NCBI GenBank assembly: GCA_016125185.1
Contig: WGMG01000002.1
Span: 1 to 64,000 of the forward strand
Origin: Armatimonadota bacterium
GTDB taxonomy: Bacteria; Armatimonadota; Fimbriimonadia; Fimbriimonadales; Fimbriimonadaceae
DNA length: 64,000 bases
Direction: 5' to 3'
Below the pieces are notes generated by a model. That model ran no database searches. It was given only the letters and a program-made list of their open reading frames with translations, and had not been told where the DNA came from. The position numbers were made by a program, and so were the translations under genes. This document shows positions 4,401-56,874 of the stretch, in pieces; the first letter of the stretch is position 1; the number at the start of each line of letters is the position of its first letter.

Positions 4401-4917
4401 AGCCAGCCTGGACAACTTCGGGAAGCCGCTTCATCATGGTGACGTAGTCGGTAGCGAACCATTGGAGGATCGCGCCGCGACGGATGGCGGGGGTGTAACG
4501 CCAAGTGAAGCCGTAGTTTTGGCCGCCGAGGCTGTCGTAAAGATCGTCGGTGTTGTTTCCGCGAGCGCGAAGATAGAACTGGACGTTGGAGCCGGCCGGA
4601 TAGGGGCCGAGGAGGCCGTACCACTGGGTGTTATTGCCGACGTTATAGTCGAAATTGAATGGGACTTCTTTAACCGTGTTCCAGTTGTCGGTGGTGACAA
4701 AGGCGGAGACGGACTGGCCCGAGGCGATCGGATAGGTCTGCGTGGTGACGGTGAGGGTTTGTCCGGGCAGGACGTAGGCACCGCGCTTCGGCTCGGTATT
4801 GCCGGACACGTAGGTGCTGGTGTTGCCCAGCCAGGAAAGCTGGCCAAGACTGATGGCGCAGAGAGCGGTAAAGAAGGCTGTCGCCGCCGCTCGGAATCCG
4901 AAACGAACCTTATTCAT
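1411..4917 (-). CDS. Secreted GH13 alpha-amylase-family glycoside hydrolase
   Basis: This 1168-residue enzyme has a signal peptide (1-26, ending SLGQ). An N-terminal beta domain (about 27-145) is followed by a TIM barrel with all four GH13 signatures. These are DLVTNH (237-242), GLRIDATKH with nucleophile D370, FGEV with acid/base E412, and SHDNG with D487. It should cleave alpha-glucosidic bonds in starch-like glucans outside the cytoplasm; exact specificity cannot be read from sequence. After the barrel come a beta-sandwich and, from about residue 790, a domain resembling the neighbouring PEP-CTERM protein, then a final Ig-like region. It lies 58 bp behind that gene and is probably co-transcribed. 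No good ribosome site precedes the ATG. Confidence 0.93.
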   Translation of the reverse strand: MNKVRFGFRAAATAFFTALCAISLGQLSWLGNTSTYVSGNTEPKRGAYVLPGQTLTVTTQTYPIASGQSVSAFVTTDNWNTVKEVPFNFDYNVGNNTQWYGLLGPYPAGSNVQFYLRARGNNTDDLYDSLGGQNYGFTWRYTPAIRRGAILQWFATDYVTMMKRLPEVVQAGYGAIYLPPPSKSGGGTFSVGYNPIDHFDLGDRLLSGTVRTRYGTTEELIDLVKEAKRFGLEVYCDLVTNHADNRASWAIDKYPAMIPEDFHIHSTADPTNEEIDFNNAGPFAFTTLNGDLVGLADIAQENGNQAQTGAFNLPSFASFNMWGKPWFVRHPLTPQYYPGGTIAPEDVREYLRRYCWYLVAVIGFDGLRIDATKHTTPAFFMNTIQHAGYDVNNGDILPYVYSLKPNAMVFGEVLSSDNYELREFAKTGMDLLDFPMSFKFNDLFNSNGFGNIGSLGNMFGIDSATGLGFEEGGLDSHVGVGFVQSHDNGPPTSNNLAHAFLLTRPGSAIVYYDGNNQQPGDYSQFPRPGRFDSLGNADDLTLRMTDARYRFARGTIYNRWQSDNLYIYERHVNGQSVLLVGLNIRGDLTSLTQSVATAFAPGTVLEDLSGQEPNVTVATDQSVTITVPPNSTPTNSNNATGYVLYAPVTAKPVSSTPVVVTDATTGQDYPLSPVTSPVGTYASGNGTTYNAATITGSKINILASTTTVGDSAYLQLDSGNLGPWYPGLKNTDEGLMDGMLAMTRTAAGSFHFDGLDLSYLTDGLHMIRVRVFNDTGTAPKLFNDFYYWFNLQKGLGTGWTIDGDLTEFGANANWWQERTPSSQSNRLDGLFVTNDDLYVYVGLAGRTDPTENLTNGMSLLIDPEVGLTGGVTDLSQVNDDSGPATRLLSNTHLTMPSGFRAKYAVASFRNHGLGSSPEATYSGSPVIPATTGAEAGAWWINTNSLSRLSGVPSVIAVQPRQSPTGPLLGLEAAIPIRNLYPNGASGYQSMGFLAYLGTTGEAGTTLNAYDPLRASFGGYPAANSWISNQFLPTQSNVVTDPGTAALSLSKYLTYTPKRAAYVGTLAPSAGPLVPLGGRKYSQLVTITNNGASTVNGPIWLTMNPGPHTFLTVLNKRADTLFGGKRPYALVQNAGLAPGASASFNVIYDGVLNGTVNVSYTAYAGPGAL

Positions 4918-4938
4918 GATGAATGGATGGAGGTTTAG

Positions 4939-4967
4939 GACCCGGCCAGACGGTGGCTAGCCGGGTC
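4939..4967 (-). other. Intercistronic hairpin
   Basis: GACCCGGC (4939-4946) pairs with GCCGGGTC (4960-4967), between the PEP-CTERM stop and the amylase start. No U-run follows, so it is not a classic terminator. It may stabilise or process the shared mRNA. Confidence 0.45.
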
Positions 4968-4975
4968 GACAGGAC

Positions 4976-5890
4976 TTAGCTTCGCTTTCGTCGCGTGAAG
5001 AGACCGAGGAGGCCGAGACCCATGACGGCGATGGAGGTCGGCTCGGGAACCACAAAGTACTGGTTGCCCGCGTACTGGTTGAAGTTCACGTTGGTCGGGT
5101 TGCCAGGGTTGTCGGAGCCATTTGGCATACCGCCAAGCACTTGGTTCGAAACGAAGTCGTGCGAACTTCCGTTAATGAAGGCGCAGATTTTGACCCCTTG
5201 GCCCCAGGTCGGATTGCCGATGAGGGACAGCGGGACGGCGAATTCCATGCCGGTCGCCACGTCGCCAGGTGAGCCCGAAGCGGCACCGGTTCCGCTGCCG
5301 ACGCCAGCAACGTTTGAGTTGTTGACGGTGAAGCGGACGCCTTGATCGGTGCCGCCCGAGAGGGCGCCGTTGGAGCCGTAGGTGGTGGTTCCGAGGTAGC
5401 CACCTGCACCGGAGCCGCCGTCGAGGAGTTGGGCCCAGTTGCCGTAAAGATTGGTGCCGTCGCCCGAGATGCTGAACCAGTAGTCTGGAGCGAAGTCGCT
5501 ATCGAACGTGAGACCGGCCATGCGATTGAGGCCGTTGAAGTCGACATCTGGGTTGTCGCCGCGGAGTGCGTTTTGACCGTGGCCGGTTCCGTCGACGTCG
5601 ATGAAGACTTCGAGTTTGTTGAAATTCGACTCGAGATTTCCACCGAAGAACATGAAGAAATCGCTGGAGCCGAACTCACCGACTCCGTTATCCAGCTCGG
5701 AGCCGTTGGCCTGGCCAACCGTCCCCATATTGCTGTCGCCGAAGTTGGTGTTGATCGTTTGGACATTGCCGGGCTGACCTCCGGCGTACGTTGAATCCCG
5801 CAAACCATCGATGGTTACGGACACTTGGGCTTCTGCGCCCATCGGCAGGACAGCGATCAACGCCCCCACCAGAAGTGATTTTTTGACCAT
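4976..5890 (-). CDS. PEP-CTERM sorted exported protein
   Basis: This is a 304-residue protein with a signal peptide (1-21, ending AEA). Its C terminus is a textbook PEP-CTERM sorting tag: VPEPTS, a hydrophobic helix, then RRKR at the end. Such tags are cut by an exosortase and go with surface or extracellular polysaccharide. The central domain is rich in G, N and D and has the pattern of a ligand-binding beta-sandwich. Its second half (GMEFAVPLSLIG ... FVSNQVL) aligns by eye with the amylase C-terminal part (GLEAAIPIRNLY ... WISNQFL). The ATG has a clear AAGGG ribosome site. It precedes the amylase and may hold it at the cell surface or bind the same glycan (inference). Confidence 0.9.
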   Translation of the reverse strand: MVKKSLLVGALIAVLPMGAEAQVSVTIDGLRDSTYAGGQPGNVQTINTNFGDSNMGTVGQANGSELDNGVGEFGSSDFFMFFGGNLESNFNKLEVFIDVDGTGHGQNALRGDNPDVDFNGLNRMAGLTFDSDFAPDYWFSISGDGTNLYGNWAQLLDGGSGAGGYLGTTTYGSNGALSGGTDQGVRFTVNNSNVAGVGSGTGAASGSPGDVATGMEFAVPLSLIGNPTWGQGVKICAFINGSSHDFVSNQVLGGMPNGSDNPGNPTNVNFNQYAGNQYFVVPEPTSIAVMGLGLLGLFTRRKRS

Positions 5891-5981
5891 ATTTTCCCTT
5901 CGCGCAGGTTTTCTTCCGTCCTGGAAGCTCTCCGATCTACGCCTCGAAGATTGAGTGCGGTTCTCCGTACCCTGATGGAAA

Positions 5982-6036
5982 TGAGTCTCTCAAGCCGGAG
6001 ACTCAATCAAGAATAGCTTGTGAATACGTATTCTTG
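5982..6036 (-). promoter_or_regulatory. Inverted repeats upstream of the PEP-CTERM/amylase unit
   Basis: TGAGTCTC (5982-5989) pairs with GAGACTCA (5998-6005). Next to it CAAGAATA (6008-6015) is inverted as TATTCTTG (6029-6036), and the palindrome GAATACGTATTC (6022-6033) lies inside. Placed 90-150 bp before the PEP-CTERM start, these are candidate regulator sites. Confidence 0.4.
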
Positions 6037-6140
6037 ACTAATATCATACAACAAAAAGCCGTCATAAATGCGGTGAGGGATGTTAAAAGTTGGGACTTCT
6101 GGTAATTGTGCGGAGTCGGTTTTGGGGTTTTGGAATTTCG

Positions 6141-6250
6141 CGCGGCGCTAAGCGCCGGGTCGCTCACGCTCCTCGGAATTTTATGGATTCGGATCATTCC
6201 TGGGGTGCAAGCCCCCCAGGCTAAGCTCTGCGACCTCTCCGAGGTCGTTC
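6141..6250. repeat. Dispersed intergenic multi-hairpin element, copy C2
   Basis: Hairpins GGCGCT/AGCGCC (about 6144-6156), CCTGGGG/CCCCAGG (6199-6220) and CGACCTC-TCC-GAGGTCG (6231-6247) appear in order. The linker CTAAGCTCTG joins the last two, as in copies C1 and C3. It sits in the 769-base gap between the PEP-CTERM gene and the anti-sigma gene. The rest of that gap (6251-6478) shows no gene. Confidence 0.6.
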
Positions 6251-6478
6251 ACAAACTTTTGGCTATCGATTGGCACTGACCTACCGTTACGGAACTCTCC
6301 AGAGACCTCTGCTTCGCTTCGATACCATTACACCCGCCGAAGCCTTCTTGGCGAAGGTGGGTACAACCATCTGCGAGCCTTCCGGGATCGGACTCGGCGA
6401 ACGACTTTCGATTCGGCTCTGATGGGGCTTTAGGCAGCCCTGCGAGCCGAGTCTAGGCTGTTTGGCTGGGCTAAGAGT

Positions 6479-6497
6479 AAAAGGCCCCTTTGGGGCT
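6479..6497 (-). terminator. Possible terminator of the sigma/anti-sigma unit
   Basis: On the minus strand a GCCCC-AAA-GGGGC hairpin is followed by CTTTTAC, about 160 bases beyond the anti-sigma stop. The stem is short and the U-run weak. Confidence 0.35.
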
Positions 6498-6659
6498 TAA
6501 GCGAGGAAGGGCCTTCAAATCTGTTTGCCGATGGTTCGCTTACACATGGCAGAGCCAGAAGGGATTGCTTTAAGTTTTAAATCGTCTTTGCTCGATACTG
6601 AGTGACTGTTTCCAAGACTGAATTGAAAACTCAGCCTTGGATTTGGGGGCGCCAGAACT

Positions 6660-7388
6660 TTATTCCGGTCGGACGAGGTGGTTGTAGGCGAAGTCGCGAA
6701 GCTCGCTGTATTCCCGTTGGCCAACCAGTACGAGGGCGGCGTCTTTTACTCGCCATCCGACGGCTTTGGTATCGGGGTCGATTTGGCCGAAGAAGTACTG
6801 CGCGTTCCGATCCGGGTCCATGCCATCGAAGCTTGTGATCTGCGGCAGGACGATCAGCGAGAGTCTTCCCTGCACGTCGGCAAGGTCGATCCGACGGGCC
6901 GGCTGGCCGTCGATGACCACGTTCTGCTGGCCGATGATCCTGAACTGAGAAAGGTTGCGGTTGGCAACACCCAGAATCTTATCGAGCTCTTCGTTGCGGA
7001 CTTGGGTCTCAGGTGTGTTTCGATTTGAACTGGAGAGGATTCCTGCAAGCGAACTGCTATCGACCGATCCGGCCTGCGTGTGGCGAGCATATCCGCCGCC
7101 GATGAGGATGAACATGGCGACGCCAGTTACGAAGGCCCACGAGTACTTCGTGATGAAGTTCCCGGACTTTTTGACACGATCGATGGCATCCAGACGGCTT
7201 TTGCAGGATGCCCAAACATCGGCGCATTCGACATTTTCAGCGTTGCCGAGCAACGACTTGAGGTTTCGGATTGCGGCGATCTCGGCCTGGCTATCCTGGC
7301 ACTCAGCGAGTTCGGTCTCAAGCTTCTGACGCTCTTCGGCGCTTAGCTCTCCATCAACATAGGCATGCAACAAACGTGGTTCGATCAT
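6660..7388 (-). CDS. Anti-sigma factor, single-pass membrane protein
   Basis: This is a 242-residue protein. The N terminus (LLHAYVDGELSAEERQ) is the usual cytoplasmic anti-sigma opening, although no HxxxCxxC zinc motif is seen. One membrane helix lies near residues 84-102 (WAFVTGVAMFILIGGGY). The remainder would be extracytoplasmic and may sense envelope state. The ATG overlaps the sigma stop as ATGA, so the two are translationally coupled and made in proportion. It should hold the upstream ECF sigma factor inactive until a signal arrives. Confidence 0.85.
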   Translation of the reverse strand: MIEPRLLHAYVDGELSAEERQKLETELAECQDSQAEIAAIRNLKSLLGNAENVECADVWASCKSRLDAIDRVKKSGNFITKYSWAFVTGVAMFILIGGGYARHTQAGSVDSSSLAGILSSSNRNTPETQVRNEELDKILGVANRNLSQFRIIGQQNVVIDGQPARRIDLADVQGRLSLIVLPQITSFDGMDPDRNAQYFFGQIDPDTKAVGWRVKDAALVLVGQREYSELRDFAYNHLVRPE

Positions 7389-45970: not shown

Positions 45971-46369
45971 ATGAGACAAAATAGACCCGAATTGACCGGT
46001 GCACAATACGACATCGTTCGGATCGCTTGGGAATCTGAGCGTCCGATTTCGGTAACAGAACTCTGGCAGGAGCTTGGTAAGAACCGCGACGTCGCTAGAA
46101 CGACCGTGTTGACGTGGGTCCAACGCCTGGAAAAAAGGGGCTGGCTACGGCGTGTGGAAACTCTCGATGGTCTCGCGTATTCCGCCGCCGCCGCCCCAGA
46201 AGATGGTGCCGTCTCGGCCGCAGAGCGAGTGATGAACACGCTTTTCAATGGGTCTGCCTCGGGCCTCATGATGGCTTTAGCTGGTCGAGGGCACGTCGAC
46301 GCCGAAGAGATCGCCCGCCTGCGCCAGCTATTGGCCGACTTGGAGGAGAAGAATGAATCTCAGCCTTAG
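45971..46369 (+). CDS. BlaI/MecI-family transcriptional repressor
   Basis: This is a 132-residue protein. LTGAQYDIVRIAWESERPISVTELWQELG and VARTTVLTWVQRLEKRGWLRR form the winged helix, followed by a C-terminal dimer region ending EEKNESQP. It is only distantly similar to the BlaI at 10076. The stop lies 17 bases inside the next gene, an M56 peptidase, so the two form a sensor-repressor pair. It probably represses its own promoter. Confidence 0.92.
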   Translation: MRQNRPELTGAQYDIVRIAWESERPISVTELWQELGKNRDVARTTVLTWVQRLEKRGWLRRVETLDGLAYSAAAAPEDGAVSAAERVMNTLFNGSASGLMMALAGRGHVDAEEIARLRQLLADLEEKNESQP

Positions 46370-47885
46370 CAACACGAGCTTTTGGCTCTCGCTGGCGATG
46401 TGGGCTTTCTTCGTCATTTCGATGGGCTGGATCGCCGCGCGTTTCGTGCTTCGTCGGCCACGGCATCGGACGGTCCTTCTCCTCTCGGTCTTTGCTTGTT
46501 CGCTTTTGCCGTTTTTTGCGCATTTGCTTCCTGCTGCCAAGCCGATCGGTTTCACGTTCCACCAAACTCCGTACTCGACGACCTACATCCAGACTCCCGT
46601 TCAGATTGCGGTTACGCCAAGCGGGCAGTCGATTGCCACTCAGCACGTCGCGGCGACGATTGAGACTCGGAGCATGGATTGGGAACAGATTTTCGTGGTC
46701 GTTTGGCTAGCCGGAGCCGGAATTGGCCTGCTTTTGCTGGTACGGGCCATCATTGCCATGAACCGACTTGCTCGTTTGGGCGAAGTGGATTCGCCGGTCG
46801 TGGCGGGGTTTCCGGTCGCGCGGATGGTGTTGCCTACGGCTTGGCCGTGCGACCTAACTCCAGAGGAAGTCGAGGCTGCGTTGGCCCATGAGCGAGCCCA
46901 TATTCGCGGTCTGCACGTGGCCGGTCGGGTCGCGGTCGAATGCTTCCGGTGCTTCTTTTGGTGGATTCCGGCCGTTCACCTGGCCAGTCGATTTTATGAG
47001 TTCGGGTTGGAGGAAATCGCCGATGCCGAAGCCTTGCGGACCGTCGAACCTCGATCCCTCGGAAACGCGCTCGTGAAAATCGCGAGCTTCGCCCATCGTC
47101 CCGGCCTGGGGGCCGGGGCTACGTCCAATGGCCGCCACCTGGAAGAGCGGCTGAAGAAGATTATGGAACGCAAACCAGTGGGCCGCTGGCCCTTCGCAAC
47201 ACTCGTCGTTGTCGGTTCGGTTTTGGCGGGCATCGCCGCCACTCCTCGATTTGCTAGCGCTCCCTCTTTCGAAAGTGGCGAGGCTACCTTCGGATTGGGA
47301 AGCGGCGCGCAGTGGACCTATGAACTTGAGCACGAAAAGCCGGACCTGAAGACGCATCCGGCCCGTCAGGTACCGGAGCGATACACGCTTTCGGTCAATA
47401 AGATCATCGACGAGAAGGACATGAAGGTGTTTGAGCTGATTTCGAAATATGAATCCGGCGCGGCGTACTCGTATCGGGGCCTCTCGAAGCGCGGGCTTTA
47501 TGGTCTCCCCATTACCTCGCTCGGTGGTCCAGGCTACACGCTCTCTGATGCCGAACCCGTTCTTCTTAATTCGGCCAAGAAGGGCTCGACGTGGACCTGG
47601 TTTGAGCCGTTTCGGGGCCAGGTGATGATGGATGCGAATGGTCAGGCACCGGACACCTCGAAGTACGACAACGATTGCCTGAGTCGAGTTGAGTCGATCG
47701 AGAACGTTACCGTCAAGGCAGGAACATTCCGATGCTATCGAGTCGGAACTTCGAGGACTTCGCAGGCGGTTGGCCGAGTGACTTCAACGGCTTGGATTTC
47801 GCCGGAAGTCGGGGTTGTGAAGCTTCAGACGAATTCCGAGTATCCAGCGACTTGGGAATTGCAGTCGTACATTTCTGGTAAGTAA
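46353..47885 (+). CDS. M56 membrane metallopeptidase with a C-terminal DUF3108-like domain
   Basis: This is a 510-residue protein with a strong GGAGGAG ribosome site. Membrane helices lie near 9-30, 39-60 and 112-135. The zinc site is HERAH (179-183) with the acidic ligand in GLEEIADAEAL (218-228). A fourth helix lies near 275-292. The rest (about 310-510) is a beta-rich domain (GAQWTYELEHEKPD ... VTVKAGTFRCYRVGTSR ... WISPEVGVVKLQ), like DUF3108 or lipocalin-type proteins. It should be outside the membrane and may be the sensor that makes the protease act on BlaI (inference). Confidence 0.9.
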   Translation: MNLSLSNTSFWLSLAMWAFFVISMGWIAARFVLRRPRHRTVLLLSVFACSLLPFFAHLLPAAKPIGFTFHQTPYSTTYIQTPVQIAVTPSGQSIATQHVAATIETRSMDWEQIFVVVWLAGAGIGLLLLVRAIIAMNRLARLGEVDSPVVAGFPVARMVLPTAWPCDLTPEEVEAALAHERAHIRGLHVAGRVAVECFRCFFWWIPAVHLASRFYEFGLEEIADAEALRTVEPRSLGNALVKIASFAHRPGLGAGATSNGRHLEERLKKIMERKPVGRWPFATLVVVGSVLAGIAATPRFASAPSFESGEATFGLGSGAQWTYELEHEKPDLKTHPARQVPERYTLSVNKIIDEKDMKVFELISKYESGAAYSYRGLSKRGLYGLPITSLGGPGYTLSDAEPVLLNSAKKGSTWTWFEPFRGQVMMDANGQAPDTSKYDNDCLSRVESIENVTVKAGTFRCYRVGTSRTSQAVGRVTSTAWISPEVGVVKLQTNSEYPATWELQSYISGK

Positions 47886-47904
47886 GCGGAATAGCTGTAG
47901 ACGT

Positions 47905-47939
47905 GTGACATTTGGCGTCGCGCCAAATGTCACGTTTTT
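47905..47939 (+). terminator. Strong rho-independent terminator
   Basis: GTGACATTTGGCG (47905-47917) pairs perfectly with CGCCAAATGTCAC (47921-47933), and GTTTTT follows. It ends the BlaI/M56 transcript. Confidence 0.93.
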
Positions 47940-47974
47940 GTAACGCTCATGTCTTTGGGTTGTCACGCTTGACC

Positions 47975-49048
47975 ATGAAACTGATGGTCATGAAAGCACG
48001 AAACGCTCAAACTCTTGTCAAAGTTCTCTCTCTCGGCGCAGCCACAGCAGTCGTACTTACCGGATGCGGTGGATCCGGTGCGGCCGGTGGCTCGAACTTC
48101 GCTACCTCGTTTGCGACCAGCTATTCCATGACCGCGATCGATGCGCCAGCCGATGGCAGCGGACTACAACTGCGGCTTGTGAGTCGAAACGGAAAGATGG
48201 GCGGATTTTATATGCTCACCGGCGGGAATAAGGCCTGCTTTGCCGTTGTGAACGGTGTTGCGGTGCGCCAAACTCCGACAGATAAGTACTGCAATCCACT
48301 CGCCATCAGCAACGATGGAACGATTGATGGCTACGTCACGAGCTCAAGCAACTTATCGATCCCTTTTACGACCCACGGCGGGAGTTTTCAAGAAATCGCG
48401 CTTCCGACGGGTGAGGACGAAGGAGAGGTAGAATGTCGCGATTCGGCGGGCAACGCTTACGTGAACTGTTGGGATTCGTCTTACAAGCTGACGGCCTACC
48501 GGTACGACGGCACAACTATGACGCCGATTACGGTGCCCGGGATGGACGAAACCTGGGTCCTTGCGGTCGCCCCGGGCGGTATGGCCCTGGTGATGGGTCG
48601 AACCGGAGGAACCAAGACTTACGCTTGGCTTATGTCGAACGCGACGGCGGGAACGCCCCTCGATTGGTCGCCTACGTTCGGTTCAGTCAGCTCCGTTAAC
48701 GACGACCAGACGATTGTTGGCTCGAAGCAGGTCGGGGCGTCGACTCTTGCCTACTATGCCGTCGACGGCCAAGAATATACGGTATCGCCCTTCTCCGGCT
48801 CGACTTATTACGCTGTGCTTGCAAGCGTCAGCAAGGGCAACCTCGCCGTTGGTCAAGATGACCATGGTCAAGCGACGGCAGTAGCTTGGTCCAAGAATGA
48901 CGGAGCCATCGATCTCTCGACCCGCATTCAGTCGGTCGCGGGACAATCCTTCAGCTTTGCTTTTGGTGTGAGCGACAGTGGTGTGATCGTTGGTCAAGGG
49001 GTCGATGCGAGCGGTGGCTGCGGGATGGTTTTGACGCCTTCACACTAA
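47975..49048 (+). CDS. Lipoprotein, HAF-repeat-like beta-propeller
   Basis: This is 357 residues from the ATG at 47975 (47990 is also possible). The lipobox is VVLTGC. Repeats of the form PLAISNDGTIDGYVTSSS, SSVNDDQTIVGSKQ and GVSDSGVIVGQGVDASG resemble HAF-type repeats, each about 45-60 residues, and suggest a propeller on the cell surface. Cysteines are scattered through it. The last two codons interlock with the convergent regulator gene (stops share CTAA). The role is unknown. Confidence 0.72.
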   Translation: MKLMVMKARNAQTLVKVLSLGAATAVVLTGCGGSGAAGGSNFATSFATSYSMTAIDAPADGSGLQLRLVSRNGKMGGFYMLTGGNKACFAVVNGVAVRQTPTDKYCNPLAISNDGTIDGYVTSSSNLSIPFTTHGGSFQEIALPTGEDEGEVECRDSAGNAYVNCWDSSYKLTAYRYDGTTMTPITVPGMDETWVLAVAPGGMALVMGRTGGTKTYAWLMSNATAGTPLDWSPTFGSVSSVNDDQTIVGSKQVGASTLAYYAVDGQEYTVSPFSGSTYYAVLASVSKGNLAVGQDDHGQATAVAWSKNDGAIDLSTRIQSVAGQSFSFAFGVSDSGVIVGQGVDASGGCGMVLTPSH

Positions 49049-51906
49049 TCTCTGACCAAGTCGTCTATCTCGGCATCCGTCGGCGCGACCTCGCAAGGGG
49101 TTGCGCCGATGGTGTTTTGGCAGTCATCGAAATATTTCATTTCGGGGGCGAACAGCTTGAGGCTGTGCTCCTCAAAGTATTTTGCCGCGATGCCCAGAAG
49201 TCTTTTTGCCTCGTCGGTTTGACCTTCCTTCGACCGAATCTCGGCAAGGACGGCCAGGGCCATCACCTTGACGCGTCGCCAACAGGCGAAGATGTCGGGC
49301 CCGATCTCGTTGAAGAACGACTTGGCTTCTTCGATTCGGTCTTGGCCGAGCAAGGCGCGAACCAACGCGAGGCGAATCTCGACCTCGTGCATCGGATTTT
49401 TGGCGAGACTGAAGACGTTTTTGCCGAGGAGGGCGGTTCGCTCGGCGGCCTGCCAGCCCCCCTGGGCGAGTTGGATGAGGGCAGCAGTGCGGTAGTAGAT
49501 CACCCAATAGTGCGAGTCGTCGAGTTCGCTGAGCAGGGCGGGGAGTTCTGTCAACCACTGTTCGACCTTGGCACGGTTACCCTGGATATAGTCGTATCCG
49601 AGGAGATAGGTTCCGGCGAGACATTGAAGCGCGAGGTGACCGCACGTTTGAGAGCGCTCGTAACCGATGCGGAGGTCGGAGGCGGCCTTCTCCCATTCGC
49701 CACGGTAGACCAGGACCATGCCCCGGGAGACGTGGATGCTGGGAGCATATTCGGGAGCGACTCGGTTGGCGAGTTCCAACAACTCTTTGTAGCGAGGCTC
49801 GACTTGGTCCCAAGGCAACGCGTAGCGGGTGGCCTCGAAGCTACAAGTAGCCGCGTAGCAGGCCTCGGGTTGGGCGTCGGCCTGCTCGAAGAGGGCGTGA
49901 GCTTGGAGAGCAATCTCGGCGCATTCGGCGTACTTGCCTTCGGCAGCTTCGCACCACGATCTGCAGAGAGCGACTTGGCCCTTTTGGAATGCAGTGGCGT
50001 TGGGCAAGGATTCCAGTTGACGGCCAATTTGGACGAGTTCGCGGCGGCGTCCGGCGGCCAGTTCGGGGTCCCAAATTCTTTCGAAAATGGCGTGGGCGCT
50101 CTCGTGATCCATCTCGATGCCGAGCGAGAGGGCGGCGCGGAAGTTGGTGGCCTCTCGACGGTAAACGATGGCGTCAGAAGCGGGTGGAAGTTGCCAACCC
50201 AGCGTGAGGGTTGCGGCGACCTCGCGCATGGTTCGGATGAACTGATGTTGGGCGGTGGCGAGCCTTTCGGAGCCGACTTCCTTGGCGACAAAGTGCTGGA
50301 TGGGCTGGAGGAGCCGAAAGCGGAGGGGGCTGCCTTCGTCATCGAGCCAGATCATGGACGAATCGAGCAGTCGTTCGAGGATATCGTCGACTTGACTACC
50401 GATCAGGGATTTGGCGATCGCGCGGGTGACGCCCTCGGGGAAGACGGAGATGGCGAGCAGGGCCTCCTGCTCATCGAGTTCGAGGGAGTTCCAGGAGACT
50501 TTGACGACTTCGTCGAAATTCTTGTGGCGGTCGGCAAGGTCCGCCAGGTTGGCGCGAAGGGCGGCTCCGGACTCGCGGATATCCTGAATCAACTCTTCGG
50601 GGTCCAGCATGCGCAGACGGGCAGCGGCAAGGCGGAGGGTCAGCGGGATTCCGCCGCAGAGATTGACGATTTCGTCGTAATCTTGGCGGTCGCGGTCAGA
50701 CGATTTCCAATTCGACACGAGGCTTTGGAGCATGGGAATCGCCTCCTGGCTGAGATCGAGTGGGCCAAGACCGACAACTCGCTCGCCTGCGATCTTCATC
50801 GGACTACGGGAGGTCACGAGGAGTTTGAGCGAGGGATTTTCGGAGAGGATTCGATTCGCAAATTCTCCCGCGCCGTTGAGGTGTTCGAGGTTATCGAAAA
50901 CCATGACGCAGGATCGACTTTCGAAGATGCGGTGGAGCGCGTCGTAGGCGTCAATGACTTCATGGCCATGGACCAGACGAGAGAGAAGGTACTGTTCGGG
51001 TCGCTCGTCGCTTGGGCATTCGACGAAAGAGACATAGCCAAGATCACCTTCCAGCTTGGCGGCAACCTCGATGGCGAGGCGGGTCTTGCCGATGCCGCCA
51101 GGGCCGACGATGGAGATCAGTCTCGATTCCTCGTCGGACGTCAAGAGGTTAAGGACATCGTCGAGTTCCTGACCGCGACCGTAAAAGCGGTCGATCGGGT
51201 GAGGCGGCTCAGGCAGGGCCACGTGGCCGGGAGTCGGCGCAACGGTAATCTCGATTTCTTCGAAATTGGCTTCCCTATGCTCGCGCTTGAATCGGCGGAA
51301 TTCGATGAGAGCCTCGGAGACGCTTCCCATTTCGGCGTGGGCCTTCATCGCGAGCTTGACCACCTCTTCGTTTTCTTTGGATAGGCGCATGGCGGCTTGA
51401 CTGATTTCGAGGGCCCTTTCGGGATGCTTTTCCGAGAGCAGTTTGCTGGCCCATTGGATGGCGGCGTTGACCCGGCATTGATCGGCCTCGCGGCGCTTCG
51501 GCGTGACCCAGGCGTCGTCCCAACCGGCGAGGAATGATTCGGACAGAAGCTCAATCAGCTCGTCGGGGGAGATTCGGTCGGGATGGGAGAGGCGTTCGAG
51601 GTCGTTGTAGACCAACTCTTTGTTGATGATGACCTCGTCGGTCGACGCCTGGATAAGATCGCCAGCATCGCCAATACCTCGACGGAGGCGGCTGAGTTCC
51701 TGGCGAAGTCGGAGGCGGGTGGAGTCAATGAAGTCTTCCGGCCAAAGGAGGTCGGCTAGGTCCTCGCGGCGCAATCGGCCCGAGCGCGAGAAGGAGAGAA
51801 GGACGAGGATCTTCGCGGCGCGGCGCGTCTCGAAATCTGTGTAGGAGCCTTTTTCGGAGTGCAAACCAACGGGGCCGAAGAGCGACAATCGCCAAGACTT
51901 GCTCAT
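49045..51906 (-). CDS. Large SARP/BTAD-type regulator with NB-ARC (STAND) ATPase and TPR-like C terminus
   Basis: This is 953 residues from the ATG at 51906. The N terminus (SLFGPVGLH ... RRAAKILVLLSFS ... LRREDLADLLWPE ... LRLRQELSRLRRGI) is an OmpR-like DNA-binding domain. A BTAD-like helical domain follows (about 105-220). The NB-ARC ATPase has Walker A VGPGGIGKT (267-275), Walker B MVFDNLEHL and GGIPLTLRLAAARL. TPR-like helical repeats run from about 570 to the end. Such proteins sense a ligand or partner and then activate target promoters. Coupled to a globin gene by ATGA, it might respond to oxygen or nitric oxide (inference). Confidence 0.9.
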   Translation of the reverse strand: MSKSWRLSLFGPVGLHSEKGSYTDFETRRAAKILVLLSFSRSGRLRREDLADLLWPEDFIDSTRLRLRQELSRLRRGIGDAGDLIQASTDEVIINKELVYNDLERLSHPDRISPDELIELLSESFLAGWDDAWVTPKRREADQCRVNAAIQWASKLLSEKHPERALEISQAAMRLSKENEEVVKLAMKAHAEMGSVSEALIEFRRFKREHREANFEEIEITVAPTPGHVALPEPPHPIDRFYGRGQELDDVLNLLTSDEESRLISIVGPGGIGKTRLAIEVAAKLEGDLGYVSFVECPSDERPEQYLLSRLVHGHEVIDAYDALHRIFESRSCVMVFDNLEHLNGAGEFANRILSENPSLKLLVTSRSPMKIAGERVVGLGPLDLSQEAIPMLQSLVSNWKSSDRDRQDYDEIVNLCGGIPLTLRLAAARLRMLDPEELIQDIRESGAALRANLADLADRHKNFDEVVKVSWNSLELDEQEALLAISVFPEGVTRAIAKSLIGSQVDDILERLLDSSMIWLDDEGSPLRFRLLQPIQHFVAKEVGSERLATAQHQFIRTMREVAATLTLGWQLPPASDAIVYRREATNFRAALSLGIEMDHESAHAIFERIWDPELAAGRRRELVQIGRQLESLPNATAFQKGQVALCRSWCEAAEGKYAECAEIALQAHALFEQADAQPEACYAATCSFEATRYALPWDQVEPRYKELLELANRVAPEYAPSIHVSRGMVLVYRGEWEKAASDLRIGYERSQTCGHLALQCLAGTYLLGYDYIQGNRAKVEQWLTELPALLSELDDSHYWVIYYRTAALIQLAQGGWQAAERTALLGKNVFSLAKNPMHEVEIRLALVRALLGQDRIEEAKSFFNEIGPDIFACWRRVKVMALAVLAEIRSKEGQTDEAKRLLGIAAKYFEEHSLKLFAPEMKYFDDCQNTIGATPCEVAPTDAEIDDLVRD

Positions 51907-52334
51907 GACTTTTCGGCCGCTCCTTTCATCATAGTTTCGACTACGAATAGCATCAGTCGCGACCAAAGTTCGACGAGTTGGTCAGCCTCAGGGCCTGGCG
52001 TCAGTTCATCGGCGATGAGATTGGGAATCTTCTTCGCGACCCAGTCATAAAGCTCGTTGGTGGCACCGTAGTGAACGTGCTGTTTGCCAAGGCTCATTAG
52101 CACCGGCTCGGCCATGTCGGGTCGATGGAGCACGTCGAGTAAGGCGGCGAATGTTTCGACCAGTTTGTCCTGCTGGGACTGGATGTCTGGTTTGAATTGA
52201 ACGCGAACCTCGGGGTGTTCTGCAAAGAAGTGATTGTAGAAAGTACCCGCGAGTTCATCGGTTACCGGAATCAGAACGAGAAAGGAATCTCGAAGCCGGG
52301 CGATTTCTTCATTCGTAAATGGAGAAGCGGACAT
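51903..52334 (-). CDS. Globin, flavohaemoglobin-type haem domain alone
   Basis: This is a 143-residue protein. FYNHFFAEHPEVRVQF and SLGKQHVHYGATNELYDWV fit the globin fold, with H86 the likely proximal haem ligand. No reductase domain follows, so it is a single-domain globin that could bind oxygen or nitric oxide. It starts 58 bases after the aldehyde dehydrogenase stop, with GGTACC-type repeats in the gap. Its stop overlaps the regulator start (ATGA). Confidence 0.9.
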   Translation of the reverse strand: MSASPFTNEEIARLRDSFLVLIPVTDELAGTFYNHFFAEHPEVRVQFKPDIQSQQDKLVETFAALLDVLHRPDMAEPVLMSLGKQHVHYGATNELYDWVAKKIPNLIADELTPGPEADQLVELWSRLMLFVVETMMKGAAEKS

Positions 52335-52354
52335 GGTTCGAACTTACCGAGCAT

Positions 52355-52388
52355 AGTACCACGTAGGGTACCAATTTGTGGGTACCCC
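52355..52388. promoter_or_regulatory. Triple GGTAC-type repeat before the globin gene
   Basis: AGTACC (52355), GGTACC (52367) and GGTACC (52381) are spaced 12 and 14 bases apart. Each GGTACC is also a palindrome. SARP regulators bind direct repeats near promoters, so this may be an autoregulatory site. Confidence 0.4.
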
Positions 52389-52392
52389 GAAT

Positions 52393-53784
52393 CTACTTCA
52401 GATAGTCGGGCGCGTTCTGATAGCTGATCGGGCGAAGCCAGCGGAGGATTGCGTGGTTGCCGACACTAGTAAACCGCACATCACTTGTGGCGGGATAAGG
52501 GCCACCGTGCTGCATACCTTCACACACTTCGACACCGGTTGGGAAACCGTTGAAGACGATTCGACCAACTTTGGATTCGATAGCCGGGGCGAGGACCTTC
52601 ACGAGCGCTTCGTCCCCCGGGCCGTGCAATATAGTTCCTGTTAGTTGTCCATGCAACTGAGGGAAAAGAGTTAGAAGTTCGTCAAAGCTTTCGGCGGTGA
52701 CGAGCAAACAGAACGGACCGAAGACCTCTTCCTGCAGTTTGGGATTGGCAATAAAATCCTTGAAACTGACGCGGGCGAGACCAGCTTGTCCAGGTTCGCC
52801 AGGTTCCAATTGAGCGTCGACGCCGGGCTGTTCGTTCATGATGGCGGCATTGGCGCAGTAGGCGGCACCAATTGCATCGGTGAGCATCGGACCAGCGATG
52901 GACTGCATCATGCGTGTGGTGACTTCACCGCAGAAGGCTTCCCATTCGTCACCGGCGATGCCAAACACTACGCCAGGATTCGTGCAGAATTGGCCCACTC
53001 CGAGCAGGACGGACTGGGCGTAGCCACTTCCCCACTGCTGGGCTTTTTCCGTTAGCGCACCAGGGAGGGCGAAGACCGGATTGATGCTTCCCATTTCGGC
53101 GAAGACAGGAATCGGGTTGGGGCGGGCGGCGGCGAGGTCCATCAGGTGACGACCAACTCGCTGGGAACCAGTGAATCCCACACCTTTAATATTTGGATCC
53201 TGCACGAGGGCTTCACCCACGGCAGCATCACCGGCTTCGAGCTGGAACGTTCCGACCGGCAAACCGGCTTCCTTCACAGCCTCCGAAATGATGTCGCCGA
53301 CGAGTTGGGACAGCTTGGGGTGAGCGGGATGGGCTTTGGCGACGACCGGGCAACCAGCGGCGAGGGCCGAGGCGGTGTCACCACCCGGCACCGAAAACGC
53401 AAGCGGAAAGTTGGACGCTCCGAAGATGGCGACGGGACCAACCGGGATCATGAAGCGCTCTAGTTTCGGCCGGGGAAGGGGCTGACGATCCGGCAGGGCC
53501 TCTACTGTTCGCTTATCCGTCCAGGCACCCGCGCGGACATCTTTGGCAAACATGCGCAATTGGCCAGTGGTTCGACCGAGTTCGCCAGTTAATCTGGCAG
53601 TGGGCAAATGCGATTCCTCGACCGCAAGCGGAACGATCTCCGATTCCTTTGCCGCCAGTTTGTCTGCGATCGTCTCAAGGAGCGAGGCGATAGTTTCCGG
53701 ACTTGCTTGTCGCAAGATCGGCGCAGCTTCGGCCGCTCGGCGGCAGGCGAGTTGGACGGCTTGTTCGGATGGAAAATCAGGCAT
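52393..53784 (-). CDS. Alpha-ketoglutaric semialdehyde dehydrogenase
   Basis: This 463-residue aldehyde dehydrogenase belongs to the 2,5-dioxopentanoate type. PVGPVAIFGASNFPLAFSVPGGDTASALAAGCPVVAKAHPAHP is characteristic. Catalytic residues are C267 in GVGQFCTNPG and E230 in FAEMGSINP. It oxidises 2-oxoglutarate semialdehyde to 2-oxoglutarate, the last step of hydroxyproline breakdown. It overlaps the oxidase gene by eight bases. Confidence 0.93.
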   Translation of the reverse strand: MPDFPSEQAVQLACRRAAEAAPILRQASPETIASLLETIADKLAAKESEIVPLAVEESHLPTARLTGELGRTTGQLRMFAKDVRAGAWTDKRTVEALPDRQPLPRPKLERFMIPVGPVAIFGASNFPLAFSVPGGDTASALAAGCPVVAKAHPAHPKLSQLVGDIISEAVKEAGLPVGTFQLEAGDAAVGEALVQDPNIKGVGFTGSQRVGRHLMDLAAARPNPIPVFAEMGSINPVFALPGALTEKAQQWGSGYAQSVLLGVGQFCTNPGVVFGIAGDEWEAFCGEVTTRMMQSIAGPMLTDAIGAAYCANAAIMNEQPGVDAQLEPGEPGQAGLARVSFKDFIANPKLQEEVFGPFCLLVTAESFDELLTLFPQLHGQLTGTILHGPGDEALVKVLAPAIESKVGRIVFNGFPTGVEVCEGMQHGGPYPATSDVRFTSVGNHAILRWLRPISYQNAPDYLK

Positions 53785-55042
53785 ATCGGTTTGGGTTGAG
53801 TTGATCGATCGGTAGAGATAGAGCCTCGTTGCCTAAAATCTCGGCTACCAGCATACCGGTAACCGGACCGAGACTGAGACCCATCATCGAATGTCCGGTG
53901 GCAACGATAACATTGGGGTGACGAGCGATGCGGCCCACGTAGGGTAGGCCGTCGGGAGAACATGGTCGGAAACCGAACCAAACGGGCTGGTTTTCGAAAT
54001 CGGCAGGTTTGAACTTCGGGAAGTATTGAGGGATCGAGTCGATGATGCCCTGCACGCGGTTGCGATTAATTTCGTTGGAGGGTTCGCCGAGTTCCATCGT
54101 GCCGCCGAATCGGACACCGTTCTGCATCGGCGTGACCGCTACACGCGCTTCGATGAGGAGGCTGCAGAGCCGCGGGGTTTCGACCGGGTTTGCAAGGGTC
54201 ATCGAGTAGCCCTTGCCCGCCATCATCGGAAGCTTAAGTCCGAGTTTCTGGGCGAGATCTTTTGAGAAGACTCCTCCCGCGATGACGACTTGATCGGCAG
54301 CAAGGGTCTTGCCTGACTTGGTCTTGACCTCGGTTTTGTCGGCCTTCGGTTCGATGGCGGTTACGGCTTCGTTGAAGAGGAACGTCGCTCCGCTTTCCTT
54401 TAGCTTGGTGCGAAGAGCGGCAAGCAAGTTCTGGGGCGTGAGGTGGCAGTCATCCTCGCAGAGAACTCCGCCGATCACATCCATCGTGACATCGGGATCG
54501 AGCTTTTTGAGGCCATCGAGATCGTGGATGCTGGCGCCAACGCCGATCTGCTGGGCACGCTCGGCGAGGTGGGCCTCAGCGTCGAGGGTTTCTTGCTTTC
54601 GGCAGAGCATCAGCAGCCCGCGTTTGACCAGCTGGTAGCCGATGCCGAGGTCTTCGGCGATGCTTTCGTACAGTTTTCGGCTGGTGAGGTTGAGGTCGCG
54701 GAGGATGGTTTCGCTGTCGGCTACATGCTTGGCATTGGCATGGCGCATGAAGGAGATGGACCAAGCGACCTGCTCGGCGGATGGCGGGATTCGGAAGGCG
54801 AACGGCGACTTGGGATTGAGCATCATTCGCAGGCCCATGCCGACCATTCCGGGCGCGGCAAGGGGGACGAAATGGCTCGGGACGACCATGCCCGCGTTGC
54901 CGGTCGAACAGCTATCGGCACCCTCAGGGTTTTGGTCCACGACGGTGACCTTGAATCCTTTTTCGGCGGCGTAGTAGGCGGAGCTGAGTCCGATGATGCC
55001 AGCGCCGATCACTACGACATCTCGACTCAAACGATTCCCCAT
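53777..55042 (-). CDS. D-hydroxyproline dehydrogenase/oxidase (DadA-like FAD enzyme)
   Basis: This is a 421-residue protein. The FAD-binding VVVIGAGIIGLSSAYYAAEKGF is at the N terminus, and GFRPCSPDGLPYVGR and ATGHSMMGLSLGPVTGMLVAE near the end are typical of DadA-like amino acid dehydrogenases. Placed between 4-hydroxyproline epimerase and the deaminase and dehydrogenase genes, it should oxidise cis-4-hydroxy-D-proline to 1-pyrroline-4-hydroxy-2-carboxylate. The start overlaps the epimerase gene by 16 bases. Confidence 0.9.
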   Translation of the reverse strand: MGNRLSRDVVVIGAGIIGLSSAYYAAEKGFKVTVVDQNPEGADSCSTGNAGMVVPSHFVPLAAPGMVGMGLRMMLNPKSPFAFRIPPSAEQVAWSISFMRHANAKHVADSETILRDLNLTSRKLYESIAEDLGIGYQLVKRGLLMLCRKQETLDAEAHLAERAQQIGVGASIHDLDGLKKLDPDVTMDVIGGVLCEDDCHLTPQNLLAALRTKLKESGATFLFNEAVTAIEPKADKTEVKTKSGKTLAADQVVIAGGVFSKDLAQKLGLKLPMMAGKGYSMTLANPVETPRLCSLLIEARVAVTPMQNGVRFGGTMELGEPSNEINRNRVQGIIDSIPQYFPKFKPADFENQPVWFGFRPCSPDGLPYVGRIARHPNVIVATGHSMMGLSLGPVTGMLVAEILGNEALSLPIDQLNPNRYA

Positions 55043-55965
55043 CGGAACGGATCGTTTTCGTCGAGAATCAGCGTCGATTTGGCGGTGATGTGGGCGCGGC
55101 CGGAAATGTGCGGAATGACAGTTTCGCCGTCAATATCGACGTAGCCCGTGAAGGTTGATCCAGTGATGCTTTCCTGAATCCATCGCTTTCCGGGCGATAG
55201 TTTGCCTCGGGCGACAAGGGACGCCATCTTGGCGCAGGTGCCGGTGCCACATGGCGAACGGTCGTAGGCCATGCCGGGACACAGCACAAAGTTCTTGCTA
55301 TTGGCTCCTTCGACCAAGGCAAGGCCGAAGACTTCGATGTGGTCGATGAGGTCACCGCCTCTACCGGTGATTCCAGCGGCCTCCAGCGACTCGCGAACTT
55401 CGGTTGTGAAATCCATCAATTTCGTTCGGTTTTCGAACAGAATTTCGGGAATGAATGCGTTGCGCTGAATCAGGAAGAACCAGTTACCACCCCACACGAT
55501 GTCGCCGGTGATCGTTCCGTAGTTTGGAGTCTCGACGGTCGCCCCAAGCTGATGAACGAAGGCAGGAACGTTCGTTACCCAAACATTCCCGTCATCATCG
55601 AGCTTTACTTCGACGACGCCAACCGGCGTCTCAATTTTGTGGGTACCGGACTGAATTCGCCCCAGATGTCTGAGAGTTTCGACGACGCCAATGGTGCCAT
55701 GACCACACATGCCCAACGTATCGACGTTGTTGAAGAAGATGACTCCGGTGCAGCAGGACGGATCGCTCGGCGGGACAAGCAGAGCGCCCACCACGACATC
55801 GGAACCGCGCGGCTCAAGGATGACGGCCGTGCGTAGGTGAGTTTGGTTCTTACGAAGGTCGTCTCGCTTTTCGGCGCATGTGGCGCCCTGGGGAATATCC
55901 CAGCCCCCGACGACAACCCGTGTCGGTTCTCCCCCGGTGTGAGAATCGATGACTTCGATCTGCAT
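55027..55965 (-). CDS. 4-hydroxyproline 2-epimerase (proline racemase family)
   Basis: This is a 312-residue protein. Both catalytic cysteines are present: C87 in GMCGHGTIG and C239 in DRSPCGTGTC. Two cysteines mean a racemase or epimerase, whereas the family's dehydratases have Thr at the second site. It inverts trans-4-hydroxy-L-proline to the cis-D form, the first step of the pathway encoded here. The deaminase gene ends three bases upstream, so the genes are co-transcribed. Confidence 0.95.
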   Translation of the reverse strand: MQIEVIDSHTGGEPTRVVVGGWDIPQGATCAEKRDDLRKNQTHLRTAVILEPRGSDVVVGALLVPPSDPSCCTGVIFFNNVDTLGMCGHGTIGVVETLRHLGRIQSGTHKIETPVGVVEVKLDDDGNVWVTNVPAFVHQLGATVETPNYGTITGDIVWGGNWFFLIQRNAFIPEILFENRTKLMDFTTEVRESLEAAGITGRGGDLIDHIEVFGLALVEGANSKNFVLCPGMAYDRSPCGTGTCAKMASLVARGKLSPGKRWIQESITGSTFTGYVDIDGETVIPHISGRAHITAKSTLILDENDPFRWGIV

Positions 55966-55968
55966 GAC

Positions 55969-56874
55969 CTACACCTTGGGTCGCTTCGCCAAACCTTCCT
56001 GAATGACCGCTTCGACCCTTTGCCGCTCGGATCCCGTTAGCGGGAGGCGCGGCAAGCGCACCCATTCGGGACAATACCCGGTTGCTTGCGTCGCAAGTTT
56101 GATGTTTTGTACAAATTTCAGACCAACATCGAGGTGCAGAAGCGGCGTGTACCAGCGGTAAAGCTCGCGAGCTTCGTCCCACTGCCCGGCCATCGCCAAA
56201 TCCCATAGCTTTTGGTTTTCGTATGGGAACGCCAAACCGATTCCGGCTACCCAGCCTTTCGCGCCAAGGAAGGCGCATTCGAGAGCGAGATCATCGACAC
56301 CAGCGAAAATGGTTAGCCGGTCGCCGAGGTGGTTGATGAGGTCGGTAACGCGACGGACGTCGCCTGCGGATTCCTTGATGGCGATGAAGTTTTCGCTCTC
56401 ATTGCAAAGCATTTCGAGCATGGGCGGCGTCAGATCGACGTGGTAGGAAAGCGGGTTATTGTAGATGAGGATGGGCAGGTCGGTGCTTTGGGCGACGGTT
56501 CGGTAGTGGGCTAGAGCCTCGTCGTGGTCGGCCTTATAAACCATGGCCGGCATCAGCATGATGCCATCGATACCCAGCCCGGCGCACTTTTCCGTGTAGG
56601 CGACGGCTTGGGCAGTGGAGCATTCGGCGACGCCGCTGAGAACCTGCACACGGCCATTGGCGATGCGCTTGGTGGCCTTCAGAATTTCAAACTTCTCCTC
56701 CCAAGTGAGGGCGAGGTTTTCGCCAAGGGAGCCCATCATGACCAGGCCGGTCACGCCCGAGTCGATCAATGCTTCAAGGTGCTTTTCAAGGGCAACATAA
56801 TCGATCGAAAGGTCCTTGTGAAACGGTGTTGTGACCGCAGGAAAAACGCCAGACCAAGCCGGGAATTTGGACAT
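55969..56874 (-). CDS. DapA-family 1-pyrroline-4-hydroxy-2-carboxylate deaminase
   Basis: This is a 301-residue TIM-barrel protein. The Schiff-base lysine is K167 in FIAIKESAGD, and Y138 in LIYNNPLSY is the partner tyrosine. DapA-family enzymes in hydroxyproline clusters deaminate 1-pyrroline-4-hydroxy-2-carboxylate to 2-oxoglutarate semialdehyde, which the dehydrogenase three genes on then oxidises. It is the first gene of the operon. No ribosome site is seen before the ATG. The rest of the upstream gap holds repeat A3 and the gltB promoter. Confidence 0.9.
   Translation of the reverse strand: MSKFPAWSGVFPAVTTPFHKDLSIDYVALEKHLEALIDSGVTGLVMMGSLGENLALTWEEKFEILKATKRIANGRVQVLSGVAECSTAQAVAYTEKCAGLGIDGIMLMPAMVYKADHDEALAHYRTVAQSTDLPILIYNNPLSYHVDLTPPMLEMLCNESENFIAIKESAGDVRRVTDLINHLGDRLTIFAGVDDLALECAFLGAKGWVAGIGLAFPYENQKLWDLAMAGQWDEARELYRWYTPLLHLDVGLKFVQNIKLATQATGYCPEWVRLPRLPLTGSERQRVEAVIQEGLAKRPKV

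Follow-up and report, generated by a model that had tools for sequence, protein, structure and literature searches.

The window analysed here, a stretch of 64,000 nucleotides from an Armatimonadota bacterium of the family Fimbriimonadaceae (contig WGMG01000002.1), carries on its minus strand a compact operon of four genes. These encode a DHDPS-family protein (55969-56874; Pfam DHDPS 1e-56), a 4-hydroxyproline epimerase (55027-55965; Pfam Pro_racemase 2e-98), a DAO-family FAD oxidoreductase (53777-55042; Pfam DAO 6e-71) and an aldehyde dehydrogenase (52393-53784; Pfam Aldedh 3e-39). We propose that the first, third and fourth of these act as 1-pyrroline-4-hydroxy-2-carboxylate deaminase, cis-4-hydroxy-D-proline oxidase/dehydrogenase and 2-oxoglutarate semialdehyde dehydrogenase, respectively. 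A preliminary description of the sequence had named the same epimerase, oxidase, deaminase and semialdehyde dehydrogenase genes, and all of them lie at the positions and on the strand given there, each supported by Pfam and NCBIfam models. At the level of protein families, all four enzymes of a 4-hydroxyproline catabolic cluster are thus present together. The best NCBIfam model for the epimerase is 4-hydroxyproline epimerase, at 384 bits and under the 450-bit equivalog cut-off of that model, so we infer its substrate; the sequence contains both proline-racemase-type cysteine motifs (MCGHGTIG and SPCGTGTCA). The cluster is of the ordinary kind, with the same four enzymes in one operon as in other 4-hydroxyproline catabolic clusters.

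A gap of 58 bp (52335-52392, minus strand), in which a scan for terminator-like or sigma70-like sequence gave zero matches, separates the aldehyde dehydrogenase gene from that of a single-domain globin of 143 residues (51903-52334, minus strand). The globin was recognized by Pfam (Globin, 3.8e-5; 24.6 bits against a cut-off of 22), by alignment and by its structure model (pLDDT 93), which matched 3s1i at TM-scores of 0.79/0.85. Its nearest solved relatives are Hell's Gate globin I (HGbI) and the globin domain of HGbRL. By alignment, it has Tyr at B10, Phe at CD1, Gln near E7 and His at F8 (H86), and thus combines the 3/3 fold with the B10, CD1 and F8 residues of single-domain (F/M-type) globins. 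Its 143 residues contain no reductase domain, and the SARP is the only gene common to the loci described below, so that neither the reductase domain of a flavohaemoglobin-type NO dioxygenase nor a linked cognate reductase gene is seen. The window genome contains only this one globin gene of the single-domain kind.

The stop codon of the globin gene and the start codon of the following gene overlap as ATGA. This second gene (49045-51906, minus strand) encodes an AfsR-type large SARP of 953 residues, as judged from Pfam, a profile search and a structure model. BTAD, NB-ARC and AAA_16 domains score above their Pfam cut-offs, and a profile search of the PDB returned AfsR first (8k60/8jke, 1.4e-55), aligned over positions 5-581, which span the SARP and NTPase parts. 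The model (pLDDT 84) shows a winged helix, a BTAD domain, a STAND NTPase and a long TPR array, and STAND folds were among its fold matches, including 8bob from the maltose system. The regulator therefore has the complete architecture of an AfsR-type large SARP, i.e., winged helix and BTAD, NOD/STAND NTPase and TPR. Both genes and their coupling on one strand had been correctly noted in the preliminary description.

A third gene, absent from that description, converges on the 3' end of the SARP gene with a 4-nt overlap. It encodes a lipoprotein with the lipobox LTGC (47990-49048, plus strand; the reading frame opens with TTG at 47912, and ATG at 47990 is the likely start), for which a family search gave no match. 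A BlaR1-type M56 peptidase gene (46353-47885) lies just upstream. Between the two, a terminator-like hairpin (47903-47935, plus strand) probably ends the peptidase gene.

The globin-SARP pair is conserved

To place the pair in context, we surveyed 85 genomes of Fimbriimonadaceae by profile searches and found 19 globins of the single-domain type. A SARP adjoins 14 of these, compared with an expectation of ~0.046, i.e., an about 300-fold excess; this expectation takes into account 0-9 SARP-type regulators per globin-bearing genome and, as the loci are related to each other, is not a strict probability. In two genomes (G009 and G015), the neighbour of the globin is the sole BTAD regulator detected. 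The preliminary description had called the coupling of a globin to a STAND regulator unusual and had suggested a survey of such neighbours, with lack of conservation as an argument against it; the survey shows a pair that is real, unusual and conserved across the family. The remaining five family globins have no SARP neighbour, and almost none of the examined Chloroflexota globins has one, so that globins of this type also function without a SARP beside them.

The arrangement of the two genes varies. The globin precedes the SARP in the window, L018 and L021, the SARP precedes the globin with a 4-nt overlap in L026, L028 and L029, and the genes converge in L022-L025, L027 and L083-L085. In all pairs, globin and SARP are encoded by separate open reading frames. 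At one locus (L023:7549-13565, G014), a second, divergent SARP stands head-to-head with the partner SARP, and at another (L027:2785-5349, G025) stop codons split the partner SARP into pieces of 519 and 332 residues, apparently by decay or by an assembly error.

The pair also occurs outside the family, in the Armatimonadota families f10 (L078) and f11 (L079, L080), and outside the phylum in two Chloroflexota genomes (L284, L285). The latter, which had been selected for holding SARPs, provide the only true pairs among 47 globin loci examined outside the phylum, mostly from Chloroflexota. At a further Chloroflexota locus (L274), a weakly SARP-scoring neighbour proved to be merely a TPR protein and was rejected; the same locus contains tandem single-domain globins, the second with an N-terminal extension (130-1570). 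A scan of named genomes with the globin found zero relatives. With the SARP alignment, the scan yielded 80 SARP-like loci, two of which, both from Fimbriimonadaceae, had a globin in the flanks (up to 4 kb). Searches of the literature on Armatimonadetes SARPs, and on globins coupled to a SARP, BTAD or STAND protein, gave unrelated papers or no papers at all.

When all genes from 19 pair loci were compared with each other, only the globin and the SARP proved common throughout. Hydroxyproline enzymes were found at none of the other pair loci in flanks of up to about 8 kb each way. The conserved unit is thus the globin-SARP pair and not the hydroxyproline operon, which lies outside of it.

SARP phylogeny, a truncated haemoglobin and haem-less globins

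In a careful tree that also included sister and background SARPs from this family, ten globin-partner SARPs form one clade (support 99/98) together with a SARP from G007. A tree of 57 rows recovered the same clade plus an eleventh globin partner, that of L027. No member of the clade is without a haemoglobin-fold neighbour: G007 has no single-domain globin, and its clade SARP is preceded by a truncated haemoglobin fused to ankyrin repeats (L087:5720-6667; PF01152, 9e-23). Truncated haemoglobins are not general partners of SARPs, as only this one of 30 family loci examined has the two side by side. Many other PF01152 loci of the family likewise have the truncated haemoglobin within a long open frame. 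Outside the main clade fall the partner SARPs of L026/L028 and L078-L080 and, by taxonomy, those of the Chloroflexota pairs, which suggests that the pair arose several times. Globin distances showed no significant correlation with SARP distances inside the main clade (Mantel r 0.23, p 0.14).

In two lineages, the SARP-paired globin has lost both the proximal His and the B10 Tyr, and with them the hallmarks of the single-domain type. In G056 and G057 (L084:7850-8302 and L085:7401-7862), F8 is Phe, the CD region is deleted and the B10 Tyr is gone; in G063 (L083:8029-8568), F8 is Glu and B10 is Leu, all as read from alignments of divergent sequences. Both lineages keep a convergent SARP and a repeat upstream of the globin. 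Judging from these aligned residues, the haem-loss pairs argue against the globin being merely an oxygen or NO enzyme. A haem-less globin domain is known from the stressosome protein RsbR (PMC6614362, PMC4476040).

Tandem repeats at the pair loci resemble SARP operators

SARP promoters contain repeats 11 or 22 bp apart, the 3' repeat lying 8 bp from the -10 element (PMC10936776), and SARP operators consist of two or three heptamers separated by 4-nt spacers (PMC5930380). At the pair loci, we found a repeat of the form TTGTMAC-N4-TTGTMAC, mostly near genes of secreted proteins or lipoproteins, and GTKACAA heptamers at a period of 11 or 22 bp upstream of several partner globins. The pattern GTKACAMNNNNGTKACAA occurs 34 times in the 85 genomes, compared with 8 occurrences of the reversed pattern, and nine of its sites, in seven genomes, are at the pair. 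The pair loci, 284 kb in all, contain 17 repeat sites (reversed pattern, 0); the count is two in 216 kb around other SARPs, one of these SARPs being a sister of the clade, and zero in 392 kb around other globins. All three genomic sites of G069 lie within 6 kb of the pair, and two of the four sites of G032 are at its pair. At L025 in G069 (2002-7195), the pair is accompanied by three putative operators and by genes for two secreted, HAF-repeat-like proteins of ~512 residues that are homologous to each other; HAF repeats were matched by two partner-locus proteins, one below the cut-off. In G010 (L018), which holds the nearest relative of the window pair, there are zero sites in the 17 kb examined.

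When sites are read toward the secreted genes, with the last TTGTMAC repeat as reference, a -10-like (TATAAT-like) hexamer with at least four of six matches lies at 9 nt in 11 of 25 sites, versus 0-2 of 25 at other offsets. Moreover, signal-peptide-like starts, assigned by a crude rule, are present in 11 of 18 genes in site orientation versus 61 of 231 background ORFs. By their sequence, the repeats at the pair loci are putative SARP operators with SARP promoter geometry, which the partner SARP may bind. Genomes that lack a single-domain globin have similar sites too, so that the motif is probably common to related SARPs and the partner SARP is a candidate binder.

Repeats also precede the globin gene at L022, L023, L024, L027, L083 and L084/L085. 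Their orientation is opposite to that of the sites in front of secreted genes, and the -10 hexamer is missing; as a guess, they could serve negative feedback.

In the window, a candidate SARP-type operator (TGTCACGTTTTTGTAACG...TGTCACG; 47928-47967, plus strand) lies before the lipoprotein gene. It consists of TGTCACG-N4-TGTAACG, with a period of 11 nt, and a third TGTCACG 22 nt further on, a pattern with 0.09 matches expected in the window. The first repeat is contained in the right arm of the hairpin described above, and the hexamer GAAACT (47977-47982, plus strand) lies 9 nt after the third repeat as a weak -10-like element, agreeing with TATAAT in 3 of 6 positions. The window genome (G000, 4.52 Mb) has four tandem sites, one of them beside the SARP. 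The other operator-like sites (C6:553340, L321; C6:1180903, L324; C11:78774, L327) each adjoin a gene of a secreted protein or lipoprotein. At L327, the same operator stands before a second gene with a similar lipoprotein N-terminus, and the site also precedes a class III-type alcohol dehydrogenase gene (formaldehyde/GSNO-type) by 29 bp.

The promoter of the window globin has no TTGTMAC tandem site. GGTAC repeats in the 58-bp gap are spaced by 12 to 14 nt and do not fit SARP geometry. We also considered and rejected a SARP-like repeat there, as its TGGTAC copies are 12 and not 11 nt apart and a period-11 pattern finds none; other matches of the repeat scan upstream of the globin were weak only.

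A proposed globin-SARP module and its alternatives

We lean towards the view that the pair is a two-protein module, in which the globin would be the trans-acting sensor partner of a STAND/SARP activator of secreted proteins. In AfsR, the NOD and TPR parts keep the protein inactive until ATP releases it, and its 2024 structure paper calls it elusive whether an inducer binds the sensor domain (PMC10936776). In the proposed module, the globin would bind a diatomic gas or report the haem redox state, and by touching the TPR/NTPase part of the SARP would shift it from an inhibited to an active state or back. Once active, the SARP would bind TTGTMAC tandem repeats at a period of 11 or 22 bp and bring RNA polymerase to promoters of secreted proteins and lipoproteins; sites before the globin may provide feedback. 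We propose the convergent lipoprotein gene as the local, direct target in the window. The module builds on the observed conservation of the pair, its rearrangements, the haemoglobin swap, the loss of haem, the repeat and promoter geometry and the concentration of repeats at pair loci; from these we infer globin-SARP contact, a ligand, operator binding and the direction of control, be it activation or inhibition. A wider generalization is offered tentatively: haemoglobins of two structural classes, even haem-less ones, might be dedicated trans-acting inputs of AfsR-type STAND activators that govern surface and secreted proteins in Armatimonadota, with an independent origin in Chloroflexota.

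Alternatively, the SARP could sense something else and regulate the globin as its target, the globin being an oxygen- or NO-handling effector, e.g. an NO dioxygenase. The repeats before the globin gene at the loci listed above would fit this idea, most pairs keep the haem-pocket residues of single-domain and flavohaemoglobin-type globins, and a convergent layout works without co-translation. However, the haem-less globins, found in two lineages, could neither act as NO dioxygenases nor carry oxygen and yet remain paired, the sites before globins lack the promoter arrangement of those before secreted genes, the tight overlaps of 4 nt, seen whichever gene comes first, suggest that the two proteins are made together, and at one locus a truncated haemoglobin takes the place of the globin. 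We therefore regard it as unlikely, although it keeps appreciable weight. Rather improbable, though it concerns the operator only and is compatible with the other readings, is that another SARP or a PhoB-like regulator binds the repeats, whose closeness to the pair would reflect no more than shared secreted targets. The TTGTMAC repeats resemble pho boxes, sites exist in genomes without a single-domain globin, and two background SARPs also adjoin one; against this, each genome has few such sites, and they cluster at the pair (3/3 in G069, 2/4 in G032, 1/4 in G000).

Passive linkage, with the two genes neighbours by inheritance and chance and no functional tie, gains something from the fact that much of the family data belongs to one SARP clade and the loci are thus not independent. 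It appears very improbable nonetheless, as the gene order changed repeatedly with the pair unbroken, SARPs from outside the clade also adjoin globins, and adjacency far exceeds expectation. We consider it just as remote, or slightly more so, that the pair is a functional part of the hydroxyproline operon, linking the oxygen demand of the oxidase to expression, as the preliminary description had suggested. The shared strand, the short gap and the absence of a terminator-like match within it speak for such a link; the other pair loci, however, lack hydroxyproline genes in the stretches examined, and the comparison of their neighbourhoods led us to discard it. Moreover, it is the lipoprotein gene, and not the hydroxyproline genes, that has the putative operator, and candidate targets are mostly genes of secreted proteins or lipoproteins rather than hydroxyproline enzymes. 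Of the earlier proposal that the pair signals oxygen or NO, a role in haem-ligand signalling thus stands as the best reading, and the tie to the oxidase falls away.

Comparison with known systems

The conserved globin neighbour is a candidate input for one branch of AfsR-type SARPs, with a possible gas or redox signal. If true, the pair would be a split globin-coupled sensor, in which the truncated-haemoglobin swap and the haem-loss cases would separate ligand sensing from partner binding. The repeats furthermore provide a predicted operator and regulon for Armatimonadota SARPs, for which our literature searches found no predecessor.

AfsR of Streptomyces has the same SARP domain, NOD and TPR, and the expected operator geometry of 11- or 22-bp repeats near the -10 element (PMC10936776). 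Unlike AfsR, the window SARP is encoded together with a globin, its putative motif is TTGTMAC and its putative targets are secreted proteins and lipoproteins. As in globin-coupled sensors such as HemAT and the globin-coupled cyclases and kinases, a haem globin is proposed to drive a signalling output. In contrast to these, which combine globin and output in one polypeptide, every pair consists of two separate proteins, and the globin is of the single-domain/flavohaemoglobin type and not of the S type. HGbRL from Methylacidiphilum, in which a globin of the same subgroup is fused to a Roadblock/LC7 domain, is a putative sensor of a regulatory domain (PMC4476040); it differs from the pair in being a fusion and in having an output domain that is no transcription factor. 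The RsbR globin domain sets a precedent for a haem-less sensor globin that keeps its role toward a signalling partner (PMC6614362, PMC4476040), although it is fused to STAS and acts within the stressosome. Finally, the window regulator shares the STAND class with MalT and further activators whose protein partners act in trans, and its fold match 8bob represents negative regulation in the maltose system. Unlike MalT, the proposed partner here is a globin, and the DNA-binding domain is that of a SARP and not LuxR-type.
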